Shown piece after piece: positions 43,995 to 57,379 of a stretch of 64,000 nucleotides of DNA. The notes beneath the pieces are model-generated. The model did not search any database. It was given only the letters and a program-made list of their open reading frames with translations, and was not told the origin of the DNA. Both the position numbers and the translations under genes were made by a program. Within the stretch, counting starts at the first letter, position 1. Every line of letters begins with the position of its first letter. Origin of the DNA: Falsirhodobacter halotolerans (GTDB lineage: Bacteria; Pseudomonadota; Alphaproteobacteria; Rhodobacterales; Rhodobacteraceae); contig NZ_JALJAZ010000001.1 in assembly GCF_022899245.1 (NCBI RefSeq), forward strand, positions 42,501-106,500. The letters run 5' to 3'.

Positions 43995-44714
43995 TCACGC
44001 GCGAAGAAAGTCGCGCACGAAGTCGGTGGCGGGGCGGGCGCGGATGTCCATGGGGCGGCCGATCTGTTCGATCCGGCCCATGGACATGACGACGACCAGA
44101 TCGGCCAGATCCATCGCTTCGTCCTGATCATGGGTGACGAAGACGGTGGTCAGACCCGTGGTGTCGTGAATTTCGCGCAGACCGCTGCGCAATTCGCGCC
44201 GCACCCGCGCGTCCAGCGCGCCGAAGGGTTCGTCCAAGAGCAGCATCCGCGGCTCGATCGCCAGGGCGCGGGCCAGGGCGACCCGCTGGCGCTGCCCCCC
44301 CGACAGTTGCGAGGGAAAGCGGTTGGCGATGTGGGGCAGTTGGATCAGGTCCAGAAGTTTCGTCACCCGCCGCGTGATCTCGGCCGCGGGCGGGCGGCTG
44401 GCACGGGGCCGCGCGCGCAGGCCATAGGCGATGTTTTCGAACACCGTCATATGGCGGAACAGGGCGTAGGATTGGAACACGAAGCCCGCGCGCCGGTCCT
44501 GCACCGTCAGCCCCGCTGCATCCTTGCCGTCGAACAGGATTCGGCCCGAGCTGGGAAATTCCAGCCCCCCCAGAATGCGCAAAAGCGTGGTCTTGCCCGA
44601 TCCCGACGGCCCCAAAAGCGCCACCAGCGCGCCCGAGGGCAGCGACAGGCGGACGGGATGCAGGGCGGTGGTGTCGTGGAAGGTCTTGGCGATCTCGTCG
44701 ATTTCGATATGCAT
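43995..44714 (-). CDS. cysA: Sulfate/thiosulfate ABC transporter ATPase, short form
   Basis: The ATP-binding subunit of the sulfate importer, 239 residues. Walker A is GPSGSGKTT at 35-43, the signature LSGGQRQR at 137-144, and Walker B MLLLDEP at 157-163, with the D-loop FGALDAR. A normal CysA has about 350 residues with a C-terminal regulatory domain; here the protein stops after [10 protein letters not shown], at the end of the nucleotide-binding domain. It may be a genuine short form or a truncated one. It follows cysW by 11 bases. Confidence 0.88.
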
Positions 44715-44725
44715 GATGATCTCCG

Positions 44726-45583
44726 TCAGTGGGAGCGGCTGGCCGACAACGCATCCGCGTGCCGCCATTCCAGAATGGTTTTCAGCGCCAGCGTCAGCAG
44801 GGCCAGCAAGGTCAGCACGGCGGCAAGGGAGAAGGCGGCGATCGAGAAGTATTCGTTATACATCATCTCGATCGTGATCGGCATGGTCGCGGTCTCCCCC
44901 CGGATCCGGCCGGACACGACGGCGACGGCCCCGAATTCCCCCATCGCCCGCGCGTTGCACAACAAGACGCCATAGAGCAGCGCCCAGCGGATGTTGGGCA
45001 GCGTGACCGTGCGGAACACCCGCCAGCCCGACGCGCCAAGGGTCAGCGCGGCCTCTTCCTCGGCCCGGCCCTGTTCGATCATCACGGGGATCAGTTCGCG
45101 CGCGATGAACGGAAAGGAGATGAAGACGGTGGCCAGAACCACGCCCGGAAGCGCGAAGATGATCGGAAACCCGCTGGCGACCAGAATCCCCCCCAAGGTG
45201 CTGTTCGTGCCCAGAAGCAGCACAAGGCACAGCCCCGCCACCACGGGGGACACCGAGAAGGGCAGGTCGATCAGCGTGATCAGAAAGGCCTTGCCCCGGA
45301 AATCGAACTTGGTGATCGCCCAGGCCGCCGCGATGCCGAACACCGCGTTGAACGGCACGGCGATGGCCGCCACCGTCAGTGTAAGGCGAATGGCATCCCG
45401 CGCGTCGCGCGACCCGAGCGAGCGGACGGCCTCGCCAAGGCCCCGGTTCAGCGCCTCGGCGAACACGATGAACAGGGGGGCGAACAGAAGGATCGCCAGC
45501 AGCAACATGACGCCCCCGATCAGCAGACGTCGCACCAGCGGCGTTTCCTGCGTGGGGTTTTGGGCGTGAACGGTGTTAGACAT
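44726..45583 (-). CDS. cysW: Sulfate ABC transporter permease CysW
   Basis: A 285-residue inner-membrane permease with about six hydrophobic segments. The ATPase-contact loop ([20 protein letters not shown]) and the CysW pattern [20 protein letters not shown] are clear. The first coding bases overlap the cysT stop by eight, so the permease genes are coupled. With CysT it forms the channel for sulfate or thiosulfate. Confidence 0.93.
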
Positions 45584-46415
45584 ACCCGATCCTCCGGCGG
45601 CTCCAGACCTGGATGATGTTGATGATCAGCAGCATCGCGAACGAGATCAGCAGCATGGCGATCCCGATGGCGGCGGCGGCGTTGTAGTTGAATTCCTCCA
45701 ACCGGATGACGATCAGCAGGGGCGCGATCTCGGTCCGGCCCGGAATATTGCCCGCGATGAAGATGACCGAACCGTATTCCCCGACCGACCGCGCAAGCGA
45801 CAGGGCAAAGCCCGTCAGGGCGGCGGGCATCAGCATCGGCAGGATCACGCGGCGCAGCGTATAGCCGCGCGTGGCGCCAAGCGTGGCCGAGGCTTCCTCC
45901 ACCTCCTTCTCGATCTCGGCAATCACCGGCTGGACGGTGCGGGTCACAAAAGGCAGGCCCACGAAGACCAGCGCGATGAAAATGCCGATCTGGGTATAGG
46001 CGATGCGCAGGCCCATATCCGACAGCACCGACCCGAACAGCCCGTTCGGGGCGTAAAGCGCGGTCAGGGCGATGCCCGCCACAGCGGTCGGCAGGGCGAA
46101 GGGCAGGTCCACCGCCGCATCGACCAACCGGCGGCCCGGAAATTCATACCGCACCAGAACCCAAGCCAGCACCACGCCGAACACCAGATTGAACAGGGCC
46201 GCCAGCAACGAGATCCTGAAGGACAGGAACAGCGCGGCGCGCACGCGTTCGGTGCTGATCGTGGCCCATATCTCGGCCGGGCCCCAGGCAAGGCCCGGGA
46301 CCAGAAGCGCGCCGATCGGCAAAAGGACGACGATCGACAGAAGCGTCAGGGTGATCCCCATCGACAGGCCGAAGCCCGGCATGGCGGATCGGCGGGTGCC
46401 AAGCCACGTTCCCAT
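45576..46415 (-). CDS. cysT: Sulfate ABC transporter permease CysT
   Basis: A 279-residue inner-membrane permease with about six hydrophobic segments. The motif PFALPTAVAGIALTALYAPN is characteristic of CysT, as is the ATPase-contact loop EEASATLGATRGYTLRRVIL and the SVGEYGSVIFIAGN block. The ATG at 46415 starts one base after the binding-protein stop; the longer open frame overlaps that gene and is unlikely. Confidence 0.93.
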   Translation of the reverse strand: MGTWLGTRRSAMPGFGLSMGITLTLLSIVVLLPIGALLVPGLAWGPAEIWATISTERVRAALFLSFRISLLAALFNLVFGVVLAWVLVRYEFPGRRLVDAAVDLPFALPTAVAGIALTALYAPNGLFGSVLSDMGLRIAYTQIGIFIALVFVGLPFVTRTVQPVIAEIEKEVEEASATLGATRGYTLRRVILPMLMPAALTGFALSLARSVGEYGSVIFIAGNIPGRTEIAPLLIVIRLEEFNYNAAAAIGIAMLLISFAMLLIINIIQVWSRRRIGYV

Positions 46416-46416
46416 C

Positions 46417-47412
46417 TTACTTTGCCGTATAGATCTGGTCGAAGGTGCCGCCATCGCCGAAATGCTCGGGCTGCGCCTTCGCCCATCCGCCGAAATCGGC
46501 GATGGTGACAAGGTTCAGGTCGGGAAACCGCGCCGCATCCTCGGGCGTGGCGGCGGACGTGTCCCAGGCGCGATAGAAATTCTTCATCGCCAGCGCCTGC
46601 GCCTCCGGGCTGTAAAGGTAGGTCAGGTATTCCTCGGCCAAGGCCCGTTGGTCGTCATTGGCGATGTTGCCGTCCACCACCGTCACGGGGGGTTCGGCCA
46701 GAATGGACACGGAGGGCACGACGATGTCGAATTCGTCCTCGCCCAGTTCCTCCAGGGCCAGCCACGCCTCGTTCTCCCACGCCAGAAGCACGTCGCCGAT
46801 GCCGCGCTGGGTGAAGGTGGTGGTCGATCCGCGCGCGCCGGTGTCCAGCACGGGAACGTTGCGATAGAGTTGGCCCACGAATTCCTTCGGATCACGGCCA
46901 TTTTGTTCGGCCCAGGCCCAGGCCGCCAGATAGTTCCAGCGCGCCCCGCCCGAGGTTTTGGGATTGGGGGTGATCACCTCGATCCCGTCGCCGGTCAGAT
47001 CCCCCCAATCGGCGATGCCCTTGGGGTTCCCGTCGCGCACCAGAAACACGATGGTGGAGGTGTAGGGCGAGGAGCCGTGCGGCAGACGCGATTGCCAATC
47101 CGCCGGGATCTTGCCGGTGGCCGTGGCCACGGCGTCGATATCGGCGGCCAGCGCCAAGGTCACCACATGCGCGTTCAGCCCGTCGATGACCGCGCGGGCC
47201 TGGGCGCCCGATCCGGCATGGGTGGTGTCGATGCGTGGGGCATCATGGCCCTCGGCCCGCCAGTGGTCGATGAACAAGGCGTTGTATTGACGATAGAATT
47301 CGCGCGTCGGGTCGTAGGACGCGTTCAGCAATTGCTGCGCATGGCCAACGGTGGGGGTCATGGACAGGGCCGCCATGACGGCAAGGGCAAGGGTCGGATA
47401 TCGGCGGGGCAT
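46417..47412 (-). CDS. sbp: Sulfate-binding periplasmic protein
   Basis: A 331-residue periplasmic receptor for sulfate or thiosulfate. The signal peptide ends near TVGHAQQ. The mature part begins LLNASYDPTREFYRQYNALF, the Sbp signature, with the typical THAGSGAQARAVIDGL, TPNPKTSGGARWNYLAAW and ARGSTTTFTQRGIGDVLLAW blocks that build the ligand pocket. The start at 47412 is preferred because the 13 upstream residues are charged. It opens the cys operon and is divergent from galE. Confidence 0.95.
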   Translation of the reverse strand: MPRRYPTLALAVMAALSMTPTVGHAQQLLNASYDPTREFYRQYNALFIDHWRAEGHDAPRIDTTHAGSGAQARAVIDGLNAHVVTLALAADIDAVATATGKIPADWQSRLPHGSSPYTSTIVFLVRDGNPKGIADWGDLTGDGIEVITPNPKTSGGARWNYLAAWAWAEQNGRDPKEFVGQLYRNVPVLDTGARGSTTTFTQRGIGDVLLAWENEAWLALEELGEDEFDIVVPSVSILAEPPVTVVDGNIANDDQRALAEEYLTYLYSPEAQALAMKNFYRAWDTSAATPEDAARFPDLNLVTIADFGGWAKAQPEHFGDGGTFDQIYTAK

Positions 47413-47483
47413 GAAGGTCTCCTCGTCGGGGGCACGCGGGATGCGCGTCATGACGATAATAACGACAGCTTCACTAGATTTTT

Positions 47484-47506
47484 AAAAGAGAACGTTTTTC
47501 TCTTTT
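47484..47506. promoter_or_regulatory. Inverted repeat between sbp and galE
   Basis: A perfect 9-bp A+T-rich inverted repeat, AAAAGAGAA-CGTTT-TTCTCTTTT, lies 71 bases upstream of sbp and 119 upstream of galE. It is a candidate binding site for a sulfur regulator controlling the cys operon, since no gene ends here and it is not needed as a terminator. Confidence 0.55.
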
Positions 47507-47625
47507 CGGTCGGAACAAGCCGTTCCCTTATCCGCCGAACGGGGGCCTGTCCGCACCGCAGCCGCTTGTCTTTCGCCGCCCGCCTGCGGCATGACTGGGC
47601 GCAGGGCAACGTCGGAAGGATTGCA

Positions 47626-48612
47626 ATGGCATCTCATGTTCTGGTCACGGGGGGGGCGGGCTATATCGGCGCGCATGCCTGCAAGGTTCTCAAGGCTGCG
47701 GGCTTCGTTCCGGTGACATTCGACAACATCTCCACCGGGTGGGAGGAGGCGGTGAAGTTCGGTCCCCTGTTCAAGGGCGACCTGATGAACCGCGCCGACA
47801 TCGACGCGGTCCTGGTGCAGTACAAGCCGGTGGCGGTGATGCATTTCGCCGCGCTGTCGCTGGTGGGCGAATCGATGAAGCATCCGGGCCTTTACTGGCG
47901 GGTGAACGTGAACGGCGCGCTGAACCTGCTGGAGGCGACGGTCGCGGCTGGGATCAGGAACTTCGTCTTTTCCTCCACCTGCGCCACCTATGGCGATCAG
48001 GATGGCGTTCTGCTGAACGAAGACACGCCGCAGCGGCCCATCAATTCCTATGGCGGATCGAAGCTGGCGATCGAGGAGATGGTGCGCAACTTCTCGGCCG
48101 CGTATGACCTGCGTCATGTGATCTTCCGCTATTTCAACGTGGCGGGTGCCGACCCCGAGGCCGAGGTGGGCGAACAGCACACGCCTGAGACGCACCTGAT
48201 CCCGCTGATGCTGGACGCGGTCGCGGGCAAGCGCCCGGCGCTGACGGTGTTCGGGACGGATTACCCCACGCGCGACGGCACCTGCGTGCGCGATTACGTT
48301 CATGTCATGGATCTGGTGGATGCCCATGTGCTGGGCCTGAAATGGCTGTTGGAGGGCAAGGACAGCCGTGTCTTCTGTCTGGGCACCGGCAACGGTTTTT
48401 CGGTGACCGAGGTGATCGACGCCTCCCGCGCGGTGACCAACCGCGACGTGCCCATGACCTATGGCGACCGCCGCCCCGGCGATGCGGTCACGCTGGTGTC
48501 GGGATCGGAAGCGGCGATACGCGATCTGGGATGGGAGCCGAAACGGTCCACCCTGCGCGACATGATCGGCGATGCCTGGCGCTGGGCGCAGGCCGAACCG
48601 TTCAAGGCGTGA
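47626..48612 (+). CDS. galE: UDP-glucose 4-epimerase
   Basis: A 328-residue epimerase that interconverts UDP-glucose and UDP-galactose. The NAD motif TGGAGYIGAH is at residues 8-17, the catalytic serine/threonine region SSTCATYG at 116-123, and the catalytic YGGSK at 142-146. The start at 47626 follows GGAAGGA. It supplies UDP-galactose for the UDP-galactopyranose mutase three genes on. It is followed by a hairpin at 48620-48642 and a convergent gene. Confidence 0.95.
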   Translation: MASHVLVTGGAGYIGAHACKVLKAAGFVPVTFDNISTGWEEAVKFGPLFKGDLMNRADIDAVLVQYKPVAVMHFAALSLVGESMKHPGLYWRVNVNGALNLLEATVAAGIRNFVFSSTCATYGDQDGVLLNEDTPQRPINSYGGSKLAIEEMVRNFSAAYDLRHVIFRYFNVAGADPEAEVGEQHTPETHLIPLMLDAVAGKRPALTVFGTDYPTRDGTCVRDYVHVMDLVDAHVLGLKWLLEGKDSRVFCLGTGNGFSVTEVIDASRAVTNRDVPMTYGDRRPGDAVTLVSGSEAAIRDLGWEPKRSTLRDMIGDAWRWAQAEPFKA

Positions 48613-48651: not shown

Positions 48652-49647
48652 TTACTTGTCCTTCGGTTGCGCGAAATGGCGGACCAGTTCGCGCATGTAG
48701 GGGGCGACCATCTTTTCCATCAGCACGGCGGGATCGGCGGGCAGGGAGGGCACCGCCACCGCCTCGGAGGTTGCGGGAAGCGGGTCGAGGAACAGATCGT
48801 CCCGCCCGAAGAAGCGGCGGGCGATCGCCTGGTTGCCGGGGCCGTATTCGGCCATGATGTCCGCCCGCAGATCGTGGGGGATCAAGAGGTTTGAGGTTTG
48901 CCCCCGCCGGATGTCCTTGTTGACCGCCTCGGCAAACTCGATCAGCTTCAGGCGCAGGCCCATCGGCGCGTCGATGAACGGCAGGTGCCGCACGAATTCC
49001 GACATGTCGGGGCACAGGCTTATGTTCTCGCCCCCGGCGGGTTCCAGCGCATTCCACCCGTCGAACCCGAACTGCCGGCAGAACGCGGCGATCGGGCCGT
49101 CGGGCATCTGCCGGCGTTCGAAGACGTAAGGGACCACACTGCCCGCCCCGAACACCTCCTCGATCCGGGCGATGTATCCGGCATAGTCGATCCAGTGGAA
49201 GTCCTTCCGCCGGGCCAGGAAATCGGGCCACGACATATGGCAGAACTTGGGATCCCATTGCCCCTTCACGTTCTGCGCCCACCAGCTTTCCAGCCAGAGA
49301 TCCTGGCGGCGCATCGCGAAGATGACCTTCACATGAAAATGTTCGGCGAAACCGGCCAGGGGGGACAGGTCCTGCCGCGTGCTCACGGCCTCGTCGCTCA
49401 TGACAAGGGCATGGATCGGGACGGTTTGGCTGTCGGCCCGCTTGACCAGATCGAGGGCCACCTTCCGCGCGGTCGTGCGGCCCGAAAAGATGTTGTTGAA
49501 GACGCCGATATGCCGCTGAACCCCCAGCGGATACAGAATCCCCGCATCGCGCAGGAGCGTCCAGTTCTTCTTCATGATCGCCTGGATGGCGGTGGTCGCG
49601 GTCCGGTGCACCCCGATGTGAAGATAAAGTTCGCGTTTGTTGCCCAA
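48652..49647 (-). CDS. Sulfotransferase-like protein, copy 1
   Basis: A 331-residue cytoplasmic protein. The N-terminal YLHIGVHRTATTAIQAIMKK resembles the 5'-phosphosulfate loop of PAPS-dependent sulfotransferases, with arginine where many have lysine, and VIFAMRRQDLWLESWW resembles the 3'-phosphate-binding strand. The rest is not conserved enough to name a substrate. A second protein of the same type follows upstream on the same strand, and polysaccharide genes surround both, so sulfation of a surface sugar is plausible. Confidence 0.72.
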   Translation of the reverse strand: MGNKRELYLHIGVHRTATTAIQAIMKKNWTLLRDAGILYPLGVQRHIGVFNNIFSGRTTARKVALDLVKRADSQTVPIHALVMSDEAVSTRQDLSPLAGFAEHFHVKVIFAMRRQDLWLESWWAQNVKGQWDPKFCHMSWPDFLARRKDFHWIDYAGYIARIEEVFGAGSVVPYVFERRQMPDGPIAAFCRQFGFDGWNALEPAGGENISLCPDMSEFVRHLPFIDAPMGLRLKLIEFAEAVNKDIRRGQTSNLLIPHDLRADIMAEYGPGNQAIARRFFGRDDLFLDPLPATSEAVAVPSLPADPAVLMEKMVAPYMRELVRHFAQPKDK

Positions 49648-49762
49648 GGTGAACCTTCCGTCTGTCTGCGTGGCCGTCTGAAGGCGCGGATCGCCGGATG
49701 CCGTGCGACGGGCGATGTAGCCCGGAAGGGCGGGAATTCCAAGACGCGGGGCGCGCGTCCGG

Positions 49763-52139
<2,377 letters not shown>

Positions 52140-52140
<1 letters not shown>

Positions 52141-53081
52141 TGCGCATCGCCGCCGTTGTCGTCACCTTCAACCGGCGGACGCATCTGCAGGTGACGGTGG
52201 CCCGCCTGCTGGCCGAACCGCTGGATCACATCCTGATCGTGGACAGCGGGTCCACCGACGGCAGCCGTGCCTGGCTGGCGGGCCAGACCGATCCCCGGAT
52301 CACGGTGGTGGAGATGGCGCATAACGGCGGCGGCGCGCTGGGGTTTGAGACCGGAATGCGCGAGGCGGTGGCGCGCTTCGATCCCGACTGGCTTTTGCTG
52401 ATGGACGACGATGCCCGCCCCGAACCGGGCGCGGTCGCGGCCTTCCGGGCGATGGCCCCCGAAGCGGATGTGGTGGCCGGGGCCGTGCGCTATCCCGACG
52501 GGACGATCTGCGACATGAACCGCCCGTGGATCAACCCCTTCTCCGGCCCGTCGATCTTCTTGCGCACCCTTCTGGGCGGTGGGCGGGAGGCGTTTCATGT
52601 CGGCCCTGCCGATTACGCAAGCGAGCAGCCGAAAACGATCCACGGCGCGTCCTTCGTGGGCCTGTTCCTGTCACGCAGGGCGGTGGCGGCGGGCGGCTAT
52701 CCCGATGGGCGCATGTTCATCTATGGCGATGACGTGCATTACACGCTGGGGCTGTCGGCCAAGGGAATGGCGTCGATTTTCGCGCCCAGCTTGCGGTTTG
52801 AACACGACTGTTCCACCCTGGCGCGGGGGGATGTGTTCCGCCCGCTGTGGAAGACCTATTACCATCACCGCAACCTCTGGCGCGTCTATCGCCGGGCGGC
52901 GGGGCCGGTGCTGTTCTGGCCGCTGATCGCGCTGATGGTGCCGAAATGGATGATGAAGGGGGGCAACCTGCCCCCGGACGACCGCCGGATCTATCGCCAC
53001 CTGATCCGTCTGGCGATCGCGGATGCGGCGCGGGGGAACCTGTCGCGCCCCCACGCCGAAATCCTGTCCCGCGCGGATTAG
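52140..53081 (+). CDS. GT2 glycosyltransferase, galactofuranosyl type
   Basis: A 313-residue family 2 glycosyltransferase. VVVTFNRRTHLQVTVARLL opens the nucleotide-sugar domain, the metal-binding DDD is at residues 89-91 (LLLMDDDARPEPG), and FIYGDDVHYTLGLSAKGM provides the acceptor-side acidic residues; IHGASFVGLFLSRRAV is typical of GlfT-like enzymes. The start overlaps the glf stop by one base (TGATG), so the donor maker and transferase are coupled. It probably adds galactofuranose to a surface polysaccharide. A C-terminal hydrophobic patch may bring it to the membrane. Confidence 0.88.
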
Positions 53082-54385
53082 GCCCAGCGTCCGATGGCCA
53101 GCATCCGCACCGTGATCGTCCCCGAGGTCGACACGGCGGCATAAAGCCGGGTGGCCACGTTCTGCACCGCCGGGGCCGCCGCCGCCGCCCAGATGCCAAC
53201 ATGACCCGGTTGCACCATCACGACGGGGGCCGCCACGAAGGCCGCGGGATAGGTCCATGTGGCCTGCGCCGACTGGAACAGCGCGCCGTGGGTCGTCGTG
53301 ACCCCGCCCGATACGGCGACGGTCCCGAAACAGATCAGCGTGCCGTCCGCCAGACGCAGGAACTCCCCGCTGGCGGCGCTTCCGCGCTGCATCACGGCCC
53401 CGGTCGGCACCTCCCCCTCACGGGCGACCGGACCCACCATGTTCAGTTTGTGCAGCAGTTCGGCCCAGGGCGCGCCGTTGTGACGGACATGGGCATGGGG
53501 CACGTCGCCCGCGCGGCCCACGGCGATCTGCGCGGCGCTGCTGCCGTCCCCGCCCAGATGCAGCATCGACATCTGCGCGGCGGGCGCGTTCGACGGCGCC
53601 TCGGCCCAAGCGTAAAGCCCCGACGGCCCGCCGAACAGGGCGGAGGCGTTGCCAAGCGCGGGCAGGGTGTGCGGCCGATCGGTGCCGATGCCGAACGCGC
53701 CCACCCGCATCAGCTTGTCCGCGCCCGCATCCTGCGCGTCGGCCTGCACCGCCGCGCCGCTGACCGCGCCGGTCCGGCCATTGATCCGAAGCGCCTCCAC
53801 CCAGGCGCTGCCGTTGGCGCTGGTCTTGATCGACAGATCGTCGGTGCCGTTCAACCCGATCTCGGCCCGCCCGGACCAATTGGACTGATACAGCAGGCTG
53901 GCGGTGTCGGTCGTCGCGGCCTTGTTGATCTTGACCTGATGTCCGGCCCCCGCATGGGTCAGCAGCGTCGCGGGCGACGACACGCTCAGCCGATTCGTGG
54001 CGTCGGCGGTGGCCGAGACGCCGATGCGGGCCGCCTCCAGCCCCCGCTCGCGCCCCGCGCTCCACGCGCTGCCGGTCCAAAGCAGGTCGCCCCCATCCTC
54101 CAGCACATGCACGCTCCAGCCGCGCCGCGGGGCGAAGAACTGCCAGGCGTTGCCCGACCAAAGCGCGATCCGGTTCTCCTTCCCGGCAAAGGCCGCCGTG
54201 GCCGATCCGCCGACCAGATACCGCGCCCCGGCGTCCGGGGCCGCGGGCGGGTCCGACAGGCGCGCGGTCACCACGGGCTGGACCAGAACGTCCAGCGCCC
54301 GAAGCGCTTCGTTATGGGTGACGTGCTTTTGCGCCTGCGCCGGTTGGATCAGGGGCAGGGACAGGATCGGCGTGGTGTCGGACAT
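53078..54385 (-). CDS. DUF2793 protein, GTA-spike-like
   Basis: A 435-residue protein. The N-terminal part (LPLIQPAQAQKHVTHNEALR ... VLVQPVVTARLSD, then GNAWQFFAPRRGW) is the DUF2793 domain, found in alphaproteobacterial phage-like tails and, as I recall, in the head-spike protein GhsB of the Rhodobacter gene transfer agent. The C-terminal part is glycine- and alanine-rich with a beta-strand pattern typical of fibrous receptor-binding proteins. No phage genes adjoin it; instead it lies inside a polysaccharide locus, convergent with the GT2 gene (4-base overlap). Confidence 0.78.
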   Translation of the reverse strand: MSDTTPILSLPLIQPAQAQKHVTHNEALRALDVLVQPVVTARLSDPPAAPDAGARYLVGGSATAAFAGKENRIALWSGNAWQFFAPRRGWSVHVLEDGGDLLWTGSAWSAGRERGLEAARIGVSATADATNRLSVSSPATLLTHAGAGHQVKINKAATTDTASLLYQSNWSGRAEIGLNGTDDLSIKTSANGSAWVEALRINGRTGAVSGAAVQADAQDAGADKLMRVGAFGIGTDRPHTLPALGNASALFGGPSGLYAWAEAPSNAPAAQMSMLHLGGDGSSAAQIAVGRAGDVPHAHVRHNGAPWAELLHKLNMVGPVAREGEVPTGAVMQRGSAASGEFLRLADGTLICFGTVAVSGGVTTTHGALFQSAQATWTYPAAFVAAPVVMVQPGHVGIWAAAAAPAVQNVATRLYAAVSTSGTITVRMLAIGRWA

Positions 54386-54469: not shown

Positions 54470-55285
54470 TCACCGCTCCAACCCGGCCAGATAGCCGCGC
54501 CGCATGAACAAAAGCCCCAGCATGATCATCCCCAGCGAGAGGCCGAAGCAATAGGCGAGCGAGACGAATTGCGGATCATAGGTGGGATAGAATCCGCTTC
54601 GCACCATGGCCACACCCTGCGCCATCGGAAACCATTCGATGATGTGACGGACCTTCGGGGGAAGATCCTCGACCAGAAAGAAGATGCCCGACACGAGGAA
54701 CAGCGGGCGGCTCAGGATGCCCCACAATTCGCCCCAGACGGGGAAATAGCCCACCATCAGACAGTTGATCAGACCGATGCCCAGCCCCAGCGTCGCCATG
54801 ATGGCGATCCCTGCGAACAGGGGAAAGGGCCGGATCATCGTATGCGCATCGACGAAGCTGAGGATGATCGTCATCACCAGCGCAAAGATCACCAGTTGCG
54901 TCAGCAGGTTCAAGGTGAAGCGCGCCAGCACCGAATCGATCCACGTCACCCGGGAATAGGCCAGAAGGGGCTTGGAATAGTTGATCGAGTTCGTGATCCG
55001 TGCCGTCACCTGATTGAACATGTTGAACGGCATCACCCCCGCCGCATAGAACACCAGAAAGCTGGTGCCCAAGGGCGGCGTCCGCACGATCATCGAAAAC
55101 GCCATCGCCATGACCGCCGTGGTCCCCAGGGGGGAGATGATGGCCCAGATATACCCGCCGGGAGAGGATCCGTAAGACGTGCTCATCTCCCGCTGGATCA
55201 ACGAGATGAACACCCGCAACGAGGCCAGCTTCGGCATGGGAAGCTGCGGCGCCTCGGCGGGGTGGGGGCGGGGCGTGTCACTCAT
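54470..55285 (-). CDS. kpsM: Polysaccharide ABC exporter permease
   Basis: A 271-residue ABC-2-type membrane protein with six hydrophobic segments (about 60-80, 90-105, 130-155, 165-185, 190-210, 240-260). The N-terminal SLIQREMSTSYGSSPGGYIW and the LFLVSGIFFLVEDLPPKVRH block are the KpsM pattern. It exports capsular polysaccharide across the inner membrane with KpsT. The ATG at 55285 overlaps kpsT by eight bases; another ATG two codons upstream is possible. Confidence 0.9.
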   Translation of the reverse strand: MSDTPRPHPAEAPQLPMPKLASLRVFISLIQREMSTSYGSSPGGYIWAIISPLGTTAVMAMAFSMIVRTPPLGTSFLVFYAAGVMPFNMFNQVTARITNSINYSKPLLAYSRVTWIDSVLARFTLNLLTQLVIFALVMTIILSFVDAHTMIRPFPLFAGIAIMATLGLGIGLINCLMVGYFPVWGELWGILSRPLFLVSGIFFLVEDLPPKVRHIIEWFPMAQGVAMVRSGFYPTYDPQFVSLAYCFGLSLGMIMLGLLFMRRGYLAGLER

Positions 55286-55967
55286 CCTCATCCTCGTCCG
55301 ATTCGTCCTTGGCGTTCATGATCGACCGGTGAAGCTGGATCGCCTCCTCCAGATCGTCGAAATAATACATCCGCCCGCGATAGAGGACCGCCCCCGCGTT
55401 GCACATCCGGCGCAGTTCGGGCATGGCGTGCGACACCACGATCGCGCCCGACGTGGCCAGACGCTGCCGGAAGATCGCGGTGCTTTTCTTGCGAAACGCC
55501 GCGTCGCCCACCGCCATCACCTCATCCACAAGATAGGTGTCGAACGGAATGCCCATGGACACGCCAAAGGCGATCCGCGCCCGCATCCCTTGGGAATAGG
55601 TGCGGACCGGCAGATGCATGTGCGACCCGATCTCGGCGAAATCGGCCACGAAATCCACCAGTTCGTCGCTGTCCACGCCATAGATGCGGGCCACGAAGCG
55701 GATGTTCTGCGCGCCGGTCATGTCGCCGTGGAAACTGCCGCCGAACCCCACGGGCCAGGAAATCGTCCCGGTCTTGACGATGCGCCCCTGATCGGTGGCC
55801 AGACGCCCGCCGATCAGCTGCATGATCGTCGACTTGCCCTCGCCGTTGCGCCCCAGAAGGGCCAGCGAGACGCGGTCGGGAATGGTCAGCGTCTGGTTGG
55901 CCAGAATGACCTTCCGGCCCCCGTCGGGGGTGGGAAACGATTTGCTGACCCCTTCGAACCGGATCAT
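55278..55967 (-). CDS. kpsT: Polysaccharide ABC exporter ATPase
   Basis: A 229-residue ATP-binding subunit. Walker A is LGRNGEGKST at residues 38-47, the signature YSQGMRARIAFG, and Walker B YLVDEVMAVGD, all typical of KpsT/Wzt-type exporters. The acidic tail (DESDEDEDE) is unusual. Two bases separate it from kpsE. Together KpsM and KpsT move the finished glycan out of the cytoplasm. Confidence 0.92.
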   Translation of the reverse strand: MIRFEGVSKSFPTPDGGRKVILANQTLTIPDRVSLALLGRNGEGKSTIMQLIGGRLATDQGRIVKTGTISWPVGFGGSFHGDMTGAQNIRFVARIYGVDSDELVDFVADFAEIGSHMHLPVRTYSQGMRARIAFGVSMGIPFDTYLVDEVMAVGDAAFRKKSTAIFRQRLATSGAIVVSHAMPELRRMCNAGAVLYRGRMYYFDDLEEAIQLHRSIMNAKDESDEDEDE

Positions 55968-55969
55968 CG

Positions 55970-57379
55970 TCAGCGCCGGTCGCGCAGGGAGTAATAGACG
56001 AGGCTGCCGATCGCCCAGGCAAGGAACGTGAACAGCGCGACCAGCGCGGTGTTCAGCCCGCGCTGGGGAAACTGCGATTTCTCGGCCAGGGTCGGGCGGA
56101 TATAGGCCGCAAGATATCGGTTGCGGCGGTTCGCCTCGGCAATGGCGGCATCGTAATTGGCCAGCGCGGTCGTATAGGCGCGTTCGGCGAATTCACGGTC
56201 CACCGTCAGCCGTTCGAATTCGGCCACGATGCTGGCATAGCTTTCGCCGGTGGTGTTCACCGCCTCGCCGCCGAATTTCGACCGTTCCGTGGCGATGCGC
56301 TGGCGGATCACATCCACCCGCCGCGTCGCCTGCGTCACGCGCGGGTCGGTTTCGCTGGTCGAACTTTGCAGGATGTCCTGTTCCACCAGCGCGGTGGTCA
56401 GCTGCTGCTGCAGGGCGGCGATGATGGCCGACTGGCTTTGCAGGTCGGCATTGATGTCCACGATCTGGTTGCGCACGCGAAAGGTGGTCAGCGCCTCGCG
56501 CGCGGTCTTCAACCGTTCCAGCGCGATGTCCAGATCATCGCTGGCATATCGCGTCGCATCTTCGCGCGCGGTCATCGACAGGTTGTTGACCAAGGTCATC
56601 GCTTGGGTCTCGATCGCTTCGGCAATCGCCTTGGCATCGTCCGGGCGGAACGCCAGAACCTGCAGTTCCGTCAGACCCGATCCGCTGTCATAGGCGATGC
56701 GGATCATCTTGCGCCAGTAATCCGTCAGATCCTCCAGCGTGCCGTCCGCGTCGAACCGCATCAGGATATCCGCCTCGGGGCGGGTATAGAGGGTGCGCAG
56801 GTCCACCTGCCCATCGACGGCGCGCACCATGTCCGGGCTGCGCAGGAATTCGTAGACGATGTCGCTGTCATTGGCGCTGTTGGATCCGCCCAGCGTCGTG
56901 GACAGGCCGCCCAGAAAGTCGGACGCGGCCGAAGAGCTGTCCTCGCTGCGCATCGTGAAGGCCAGCGTGGAGGAATATTGATCCGACGCCCAGAGATAGA
57001 GATAGGAGGCCGTCGCCAGCACCGGCAGGATCACGACCAGCACAAAGGCCATAAGAATGCCCCGGTGGCGCGGCTTGATGCGCGCCAGACCCGCGGCCTT
57101 GATCGGGGTGGGCGCTTCGGGGTCGGTCTTCAGGTCGGCCAGACGCGGAAAGGCGTTCGGCCCCTTGCCGCCCGGCCCGCCGTTGCCCGGTCCTCCGTTA
57201 CCCGGCCCCCCCTTTCCCGGCCCCCCCTGACCGCCACCCGGCTTGGCCGGGACCTTCGGGGCCTCCGCCGCCTGACCTTCGGCCGCGGGGGCCGCCGGAT
57301 CGGGAGAGACGGTCTTGTCCTTGGCATCCTCCGCCGGTTTGGCAGGCGAAGGCGGGGTCGTAGAAGAAGTTTGGGTCAT
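55970..57379 (-). CDS. kpsE: Polysaccharide export inner-membrane protein, KpsE type
   Basis: A 469-residue membrane-periplasmic co-export protein. A disordered N-terminus rich in proline, alanine and glycine includes a run of GGPG(K/N)G repeats (residues 48-72). A membrane segment follows at about 109-131 (ILMAFVLVVILPVLATASYL), then a periplasmic domain with long coiled coil (about 270-400), and a second membrane segment at about 443-466. This two-helix layout is that of KpsE/BexC-type proteins, which bridge inner and outer membranes for capsule export. It is the first gene of the kps operon. Confidence 0.88.
   Translation of the reverse strand: MTQTSSTTPPSPAKPAEDAKDKTVSPDPAAPAAEGQAAEAPKVPAKPGGGQGGPGKGGPGNGGPGNGGPGGKGPNAFPRLADLKTDPEAPTPIKAAGLARIKPRHRGILMAFVLVVILPVLATASYLYLWASDQYSSTLAFTMRSEDSSSAASDFLGGLSTTLGGSNSANDSDIVYEFLRSPDMVRAVDGQVDLRTLYTRPEADILMRFDADGTLEDLTDYWRKMIRIAYDSGSGLTELQVLAFRPDDAKAIAEAIETQAMTLVNNLSMTAREDATRYASDDLDIALERLKTAREALTTFRVRNQIVDINADLQSQSAIIAALQQQLTTALVEQDILQSSTSETDPRVTQATRRVDVIRQRIATERSKFGGEAVNTTGESYASIVAEFERLTVDREFAERAYTTALANYDAAIAEANRRNRYLAAYIRPTLAEKSQFPQRGLNTALVALFTFLAWAIGSLVYYSLRDRR

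Follow-up and report, generated by a model that had tools for sequence, protein, structure and literature searches.

Gene transfer agents (GTAs) package the DNA of the cell that produces them at that cell's cost, and it has been argued that they can be maintained only if that DNA reaches close kin (PMC10883770). In the GTA of Rhodobacter capsulatus (RcGTA), the receptor-binding fibres are encoded outside the main gene cluster, namely the head-spike fibre GhsB (Rcc01080) and the tail fibre Rcc00171 (PMC7296036, PMC8601537). The tail fibre is 371 residues long (PMC7296036) and belongs to the DUF2793 family (PMC10883770, PMC8265664), which co-evolves with GTA genes (PMC10883770). For the head spike, it is already published that its genes adjoin capsule genes in R. 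capsulatus and are co-regulated with them (PMC10218006). A further DUF2793 gene is found in a stretch of 64,000 nucleotides from Falsirhodobacter halotolerans (contig NZ_JALJAZ010000001.1, positions 42,501 to 106,500; the window). Its product, P0002, has 435 residues and is encoded in what appears to be a capsule operon. We conclude that P0002 is most likely the Rcc00171-type tail fibre of this bacterium's own GTA.

The DUF2793 domain of P0002 is recognized by Pfam PF10983 with an E-value of 5e-27 (94 bits, with the cut-off at 27), and four of the ten PHROG families that P0002 matches are named tail fibre. Among solved structures, its sequence matches the fibre vBDshSR4C_017 of Dinoroseobacter phage R4C (8gtc, chains S and T; E 9.6e-16), in which residues 1-35 form a rod and the N-terminal extension binds the fibre-binding domain of the megatron protein (PMC10276861). 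An AlphaFold2 model of P0002 built from 41 sequences has a mean predicted local distance difference test score (pLDDT) of 77.8 and a predicted template modelling score (pTM) of 0.36, and its confidence, averaged over ten-residue blocks, exceeds 90 in the knob (residues 41-110) and in residues 331-435. The predicted fold was compared with known structures by VIA-align and also by Foldseek. Residues 18-112 align with the R4C fibre chain 8gtc_T (Z 11.0; root-mean-square deviation 2.1 Å over 94 residues; 30% identity), while the C-terminal foot, residues 329-433, aligns with the R1-pyocin foot 6cxb (Z 11.3; 2.2 Å) and the AP22 fibre 4mtm (Z 10.1). P0002 would accordingly join a rod and knob of the R4C megatron-docking type to a foot of the R-pyocin/AP22 type. 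The foot also resembles H-type lectins and discoidins at Z about 8, a level at which, as the tool warns, a common arrangement may suffice. Scores of Z 4-5 between the foot and pore-forming toxins in VIA-align were set aside as generic beta-sandwich similarity.

Conservation is concentrated in the putative docking segment. Among 21 sequences of orphans, as we call DUF2793 genes lying elsewhere than within 4 kb downstream of a GTA or phage megatron, the mean modal frequency (alignment A1) is 0.83 for residues 8-36, 0.51 for 37-117, 0.67 for 118-209, 0.26 for 210-316 and 0.39 for 317-435. In an alignment of 41 orphan sequences (A2) the corresponding values are 0.81, 0.51, 0.70, 0.32 and 0.44; members of A2 were partly picked by a rod pattern, so that its rod conservation is partly due to selection, while A1 was not so picked and agrees.

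Like Rcc00171, P0002 has a DUF2793 N-terminus, a rod-knob-foot plan and a location outside the head-tail cluster, and its foot resembles 6CXB and 4MTM, the two structures that were fitted to the RcGTA fibre (PMC7296036). It differs in length and in its capsule locus, which is characterized by glf and a putative galactofuranosyltransferase (GalfT) gene. A 371-residue homologue from R. aestuarii, used as a stand-in for Rcc00171, is 44% identical to P0002 over 355 aligned residues. Within the genus to which R. aestuarii belongs, all 18 genomes contain a match, that of G294 being a fragment, and in six of them it is a DUF2793 protein 64-100% identical over at least 370 of 371 residues. These closest relatives of Rcc00171 length are also found in polysaccharide surroundings: all six genes have polysaccharide genes within 1.5 kb, including a glycosyltransferase gene and rfbA in every case, and four have KpsE- and Wzt-like genes on one side. 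Across the 20 loci of this genus search, 15 have a polysaccharide-gene match, two a megatron and three neither. The gene near 203 kb of the first contig of G286 appears to sit as expected for R. capsulatus rcc00171.

Parts of P0002 recur in other particles. The R4C fibre shares its rod and knob but has a different foot and is encoded among phage tail genes. The fibres of R1 and R2 pyocins and gp53 of AP22 share the fold of the foot (Z 10-11) but have other N-terminal attachments and belong to pyocins or a phage, not a GTA. The fibres encoded within GTA clusters, directly after the megatron, contain DUF2793 and the same docking motif as P0002; they are shorter (235-241 residues in eight of the nine read and 158 in the ninth) and fall in a tree group separate from the orphans.

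The F. halotolerans genome encodes a single GTA megatron (PF13547, E 2.8e-146), which carries Rcc01698_C (PF23666) and is surrounded by a GTA cluster with portal, tail tube, DUF2460 and hub genes. The sequence-only reading of this DNA, which took the DUF2793 protein for a GTA component, thus finds the expected GTA in the same genome. No fibre gene was found after this megatron, and a search of the whole genome with PF10983 returns P0002 as the sole match. A 364-residue open reading frame (ORF) downstream of the megatron, P0003, was considered as the cluster fibre and rejected; Pfam recognizes no domain in it, and it looks like a spurious frame. Elsewhere in this genome (C1, about 1.247-1.254 Mb; L034:2339-8516), a 1484-residue tail-tip protein is followed by a 383-residue fibre (C1:1252802) that is devoid of DUF2793 and has only its C-terminal foot in common with P0002. 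This foot is a module that P0002 shares with the fibre of what is presumably a resident prophage.

The pairing of a fibre-less megatron with an orphan DUF2793 gene is repeated across the family. We surveyed 248 family genomes, one per genus for nearly all, and mapped the DUF2793 places in 121 of them. DUF2793 is present in 186 of the 215 genomes with a megatron, against 8 of the 33 without one (p 6e-13). The 121 mapped genomes contain 128 DUF2793 genes, 62 of them within 4 kb downstream of a GTA or phage megatron and 66 orphans. An orphan is present in 50 of the 69 genomes with a fibre-less megatron, compared with 5 of the 36 in which every megatron is followed by a fibre (Fisher 8e-9) and 3 of the 16 without a megatron. 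When the count is restricted to assemblies with 20 contigs or fewer, by the rounded table values, these proportions are 16/17, 1/14 and 2/5. The number of megatrons equals the number of fibres in 32 of these 36 assemblies and in 89 of all 121; the four unequal assemblies comprise one whose megatron has internal stops (G018), two with a fibre and no megatron (G045 and G071), and one with a partial megatron match and no fibre (G055). For 75 genomes placed on a megatron tree, a model of dependent evolution is preferred over an independent one (likelihood ratio 30.5, p 4e-6), also after removal of four contig-end genomes (34.5, p 6e-7). This test used a custom script with few optimizer starts and one quick megatron tree, in which 16 of the 72 inner branches are starred. 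A megatron also occurs in 36 of 37 named orphan-bearing genomes, a chosen part of the named loci described below, which adds little to the baseline of 215 in 248. The rule of thumb of one fibre per megatron may aid the finding of GTA fibres in other genomes.

Two observations accompany this survey. Orphan DUF2793 genes are also found in megatron-bearing genomes of Rhizobium, Martelella and Devosia (L134, L140, L144, L148, L164, L168), with a sugar-transferase match nearby in the Martelella loci L144 and L164. A recurrent class of megatrons (G043, G055, G032, G070, G079, G092, G104) aligns with the GTA TIM-barrel model in its final third alone, at about positions 203-299; five of these seven lie in ORFs of 827-878 residues, and they possibly represent GTAs with a reduced peripheral domain.

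Orphans are mostly found among polysaccharide genes. In 40 loci, a chosen subset of 62 DUF2793 places, a polysaccharide gene lies near 17 of 22 orphans and near none of 18 megatron-adjacent DUF2793 genes. A wider set of 80 named loci, the best 80 of 574 confirmed relatives, was obtained from the orphan alignment through peptide patterns, which cover a portion of the rod. At least one polysaccharide gene is present in 61 of them, phage or GTA tail genes alone in one, and neither in 18. By comparison, 7 of 40 random 20-kb regions from 10 genomes have a polysaccharide gene. Two or more are found in 46 of the 80 named loci against 3 of the 40 random regions (35 of the 53 loci of at least 20 kb; Fisher 4e-9). 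The polysaccharide reference proteins were drawn from DUF2793-adjacent loci and from the window, which biases these counts toward such loci, and L038 (G051), being 99-100% identical to the Cereibacter sphaeroides plasmid, is not independent of its reference.

Some such loci are carried by plasmids. Annotated polysaccharide genes are in view in all 18 plasmid regions inspected, which were better-scoring or chosen among 154 records and include six from C. sphaeroides; at L088, a nucleotide-sugar dehydrogenase gene is the only one. On the 65-kb biofilm plasmid pPGA1_65 of Phaeobacter inhibens DSM 17395, the DUF2793 gene lies between rfb and manC-fcl-gmd genes. The arrangement differs in two Rhodobacter phages, RcSimone-Hastad and RcDormio, where DUF2793 is encoded immediately after the megatron. 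The suggestion that a GTA receptor-binding protein is encoded within a capsule locus is borne out, and such siting appears widespread in the family. Among the literature records listed, which did not include Hynes et al. (2016) and Westbye et al. (2016), none was seen to describe tail fibres encoded within polysaccharide loci; earlier mention in those two papers is possible. Some plasmid fibre genes are also found near genes for calcium-binding repeat proteins (L076, L079, L087, L090) or GH99-like proteins (L076, L089).

The pairing of orphans with lone megatrons and the location of orphans in polysaccharide loci therefore make a GTA tail fibre the most likely identity of P0002. P0002 would be co-transcribed with the capsule-export genes, as the last gene after kpsE-wzt-wzm. 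In producing cells, trimers of the fibre would dock through the conserved N-terminal rod on the fibre-binding domain of the megatron in the GTA baseplate, as we infer from the arrangement seen in R4C. The lectin-like foot would then bind a sugar on the surface of the recipient cell, plausibly the polysaccharide made and exported by its own locus (glf, the glycosyltransferase and wzm/wzt/kpsE). A galactose-type ligand, suggested by the H-type-lectin-like fold together with the galactofuranose genes, is only a guess. Because the fibre and the synthesis of its receptor would be encoded in one locus, the particle would keep a specificity that follows the surface type of the cell producing it, and delivery of DNA would be restricted to kin. 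Linkage of a fibre to the genes for its probable receptor would, if true, be a simple genetic device for kin delivery. It also offers a testable function for the DUF2793 genes of such well-studied replicons as the P. inhibens DSM 17395 65-kb plasmid and C. sphaeroides plasmid pA.

A broader proposal is more tentative. In much of the Rhodobacterales, the GTA fibre may be a cassette of a capsule or biofilm polysaccharide locus, often plasmid-borne and one per baseplate, such that a cell gaining a new surface locus re-addresses its particles to cells with that surface; we regard this as a possibility somewhat short of even. If true, it would provide built-in kin recognition and a reason for the scattering of GTA genes over the genome. 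The sequence-only reading supposed that joint placement would keep particle and host surface matched upon exchange of the locus. Exchange of the fibre foot together with capsule genes finds no evidence in a comparison of four C. sphaeroides records with ATCC 17029 (a fifth record, L346, was left out), where the foot is conserved and some neighbours vary. The foot is 98-100% identical in these comparisons, while neighbours paired by position are 21-29% (sulfotransferase-like or hypothetical) and 77% (a second hypothetical) identical, and a third, in KD131, 69%. In the more distant Rhodobacter sp. CZR27, the foot is 62% and the rod 89% identical.

Several observations weigh against the identification of P0002 as a GTA fibre or against parts of the scheme. 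Expression from a capsule operon would have all encapsulated cells produce the fibre, whereas RcGTA stays uninduced in more than 97% of the cells of R. capsulatus (PMC10218006). The sequence comparison with Rcc00171 was made through the 371-residue proxy. On the side of the survey, DUF2793 is found without a megatron match in 8 of 194 DUF2793-bearing genomes (G028, G045, G071, G122, G141, G180, G210, G240), two of which (G045 and G141) are single-contig assemblies, and also in strain KLH11 (G256). In these cases the GTA may have been lost recently, the assembly may have gaps, or the protein may have a second function. The hub family is also not found in G045, G071 and G028, which says little, as the same search misses two megatron-bearing Devosia genomes. 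Conversely, 19 of the 69 lone-megatron genomes have no orphan, although this falls to 1 of 17 in the assemblies of at most 20 contigs, and a control with independent pairs yields only three pairs on well-supported branches, with which significance is unreachable. Finally, orphans look like one lineage in sequence, as opposed to repeated relocations of a cluster fibre. In a tree built from the N-terminal 118 residues of 131 sequences (110 of them orphans), which has few alignment columns and 12 starred branches among 128 inner ones, four label changes separate orphans, in-cluster GTA fibres, prophage fibres and phage fibres. Since orphans are grouped apart from the in-cluster fibres, they are not simply relocated cluster copies.

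The grouping of orphans, their recurrent siting in capsule, exopolysaccharide and biofilm loci, and the presence of DUF2793 in 8 of the 33 megatron-less genomes and in KLH11 are what would be expected of a domesticated phage tail fibre that has lost any role in a virion and serves as a surface or matrix lectin, an adhesin organizing the co-encoded polysaccharide. We consider such a lectin unlikely for P0002. The docking rod is its most conserved segment (modal frequency 0.83 in A1, where residues 317-435 have 0.39), which counts against a free lectin because such a protein would not need a docking rod. Inspection of the sequence by eye reveals no signal peptide or membrane segment, and orphans pair with fibre-less megatrons. 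A host-encoded helper fibre for prophages with GTA-like baseplates, or a leftover phage cargo gene, is less probable still. Phage and prophage fibres do have the same N-terminal half, prophages with a megatron occur commonly across the family, and the foot recurs on the fibre of the apparent resident prophage at L034. However, the prophage-type megatrons inspected have their own fibre directly downstream (in fragmented genomes, some additional megatrons do not), the single megatron of this genome lies inside the GTA cluster, and every checked neighbour of P0002 in the window is a polysaccharide or metabolic gene, none being a phage gene.

A relation to the GTA head spike, which the sequence-only reading had proposed, is the least credible identity and was rejected on sequence. 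Its assignment of the protein to a GTA stands, with DUF2793 being the family of the tail fibre; the placement on the head does not. The head-spike idea draws on the fact that both receptor-binding proteins of RcGTA are encoded off-cluster and that the R. capsulatus spike genes, including that of GhsB, lie beside capsule genes (PMC10218006), a likeness that P0002 shares. GhsB is nevertheless unrelated in sequence and sits on the capsid rather than the baseplate. Rcc01080 (PDB 6tb9) was among the solved structures searched and gave no match with P0002 at E<=1. As a proxy for GhsB we used its close homologue RcapMu58 (E 1.3e-165 to 6tb9), which has no Pfam match and hence no DUF2793, and shares with P0002 only a 23-residue match at chance level (E 0.043). 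The F. halotolerans genome has no homologue of RcapMu58 at E<=0.001, in a search that did not extend to GhsA; among the 20 genomes covered, R. aestuarii alone gave a match to this protein. In GhsB, an N-terminal Ile/Leu-Gly repeat plugs the GhsA pentamer (PMC7296036), and by eye no such repeat is present at the N-terminus of P0002.

The tail-fibre gene and its neighbours are listed below. Its position between the glycosyltransferase and export genes was read correctly from the sequence, with the ORF, the PF10983 domain and the neighbours all confirmed.

Table 1. Features of the P0002 gene and the surrounding capsule locus (window positions)
Feature	Position	Strand	Basis
DUF2793 protein P0002, 435 residues, probable GTA tail fibre, encoded at the end of the putative capsule-export operon	53078-54385	-	ORF, Pfam, PHROG, predicted fold
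N-terminal rod, residues 8-36, matching the R4C megatron-docking rod	54278-54364	-	Conservation and R4C comparison
DUF2793/knob domain, residues 24-108	54062-54316	-	PF10983; 8gtc_T Z 11.0
C-terminal foot, residues 329-433, putative sugar-binding part	53087-53401	-	6cxb Z 11.3, 4mtm Z 10.1
wzm/KpsM-like ABC-2 permease, capsule export	54470-55291	-	PF01061; KpsM/VexB matches below cut-off
wzt/KpsT-like export ATPase	55278-55967	-	PF00005
KpsE/BexC-type polysaccharide export inner-membrane protein	55970-57379	-	TIGR01010 E 1.2e-64, below its cut-off
Family-2 glycosyltransferase, probably galactofuranosyltransferase	52140-53081	+	PF00535; start inferred, ORF opens at 52068
UDP-galactopyranose mutase glf	50923-52140	+	PF03275; TIGR00031 over cut-off
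Two ORFs, sulfotransferase-like by eye alone	48652-49647, 49763-50920	-	No credible Pfam match
GalE-like NAD-dependent epimerase	47626-48612	+	PF01370 E 1.2e-53 within ORF 46072-48612; start inferred

The P0002 gene begins with ATG, immediately preceded by a GGAG-containing stretch. In the order kpsE-wzt-wzm-P0002, successive genes are separated by a 2-nt gap, a 14-nt overlap and an 84-nt gap, and in the last of these a pattern scan of the minus strand detected nothing resembling a terminator. Promoter scanning detected none, and terminator-like sites are about as frequent as in shuffled sequence. The glycosyltransferase gene runs convergently into the P0002 gene, whose last 4 nt it covers. 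Its best NCBIfam match is GlfT1, at 58 bits far under the 330-bit cut-off; this weak match and the neighbouring glf suggest galactofuranosyl specificity. An ATP-binding cassette (ABC) importer operon at 43995-47451 encodes an ATPase, two permeases and a binding protein that look sulfate-type by eye. The operon adjoins the sulfotransferase-like ORFs (48652-50920) and the capsule genes, an arrangement that would fit a sulfated polysaccharide.

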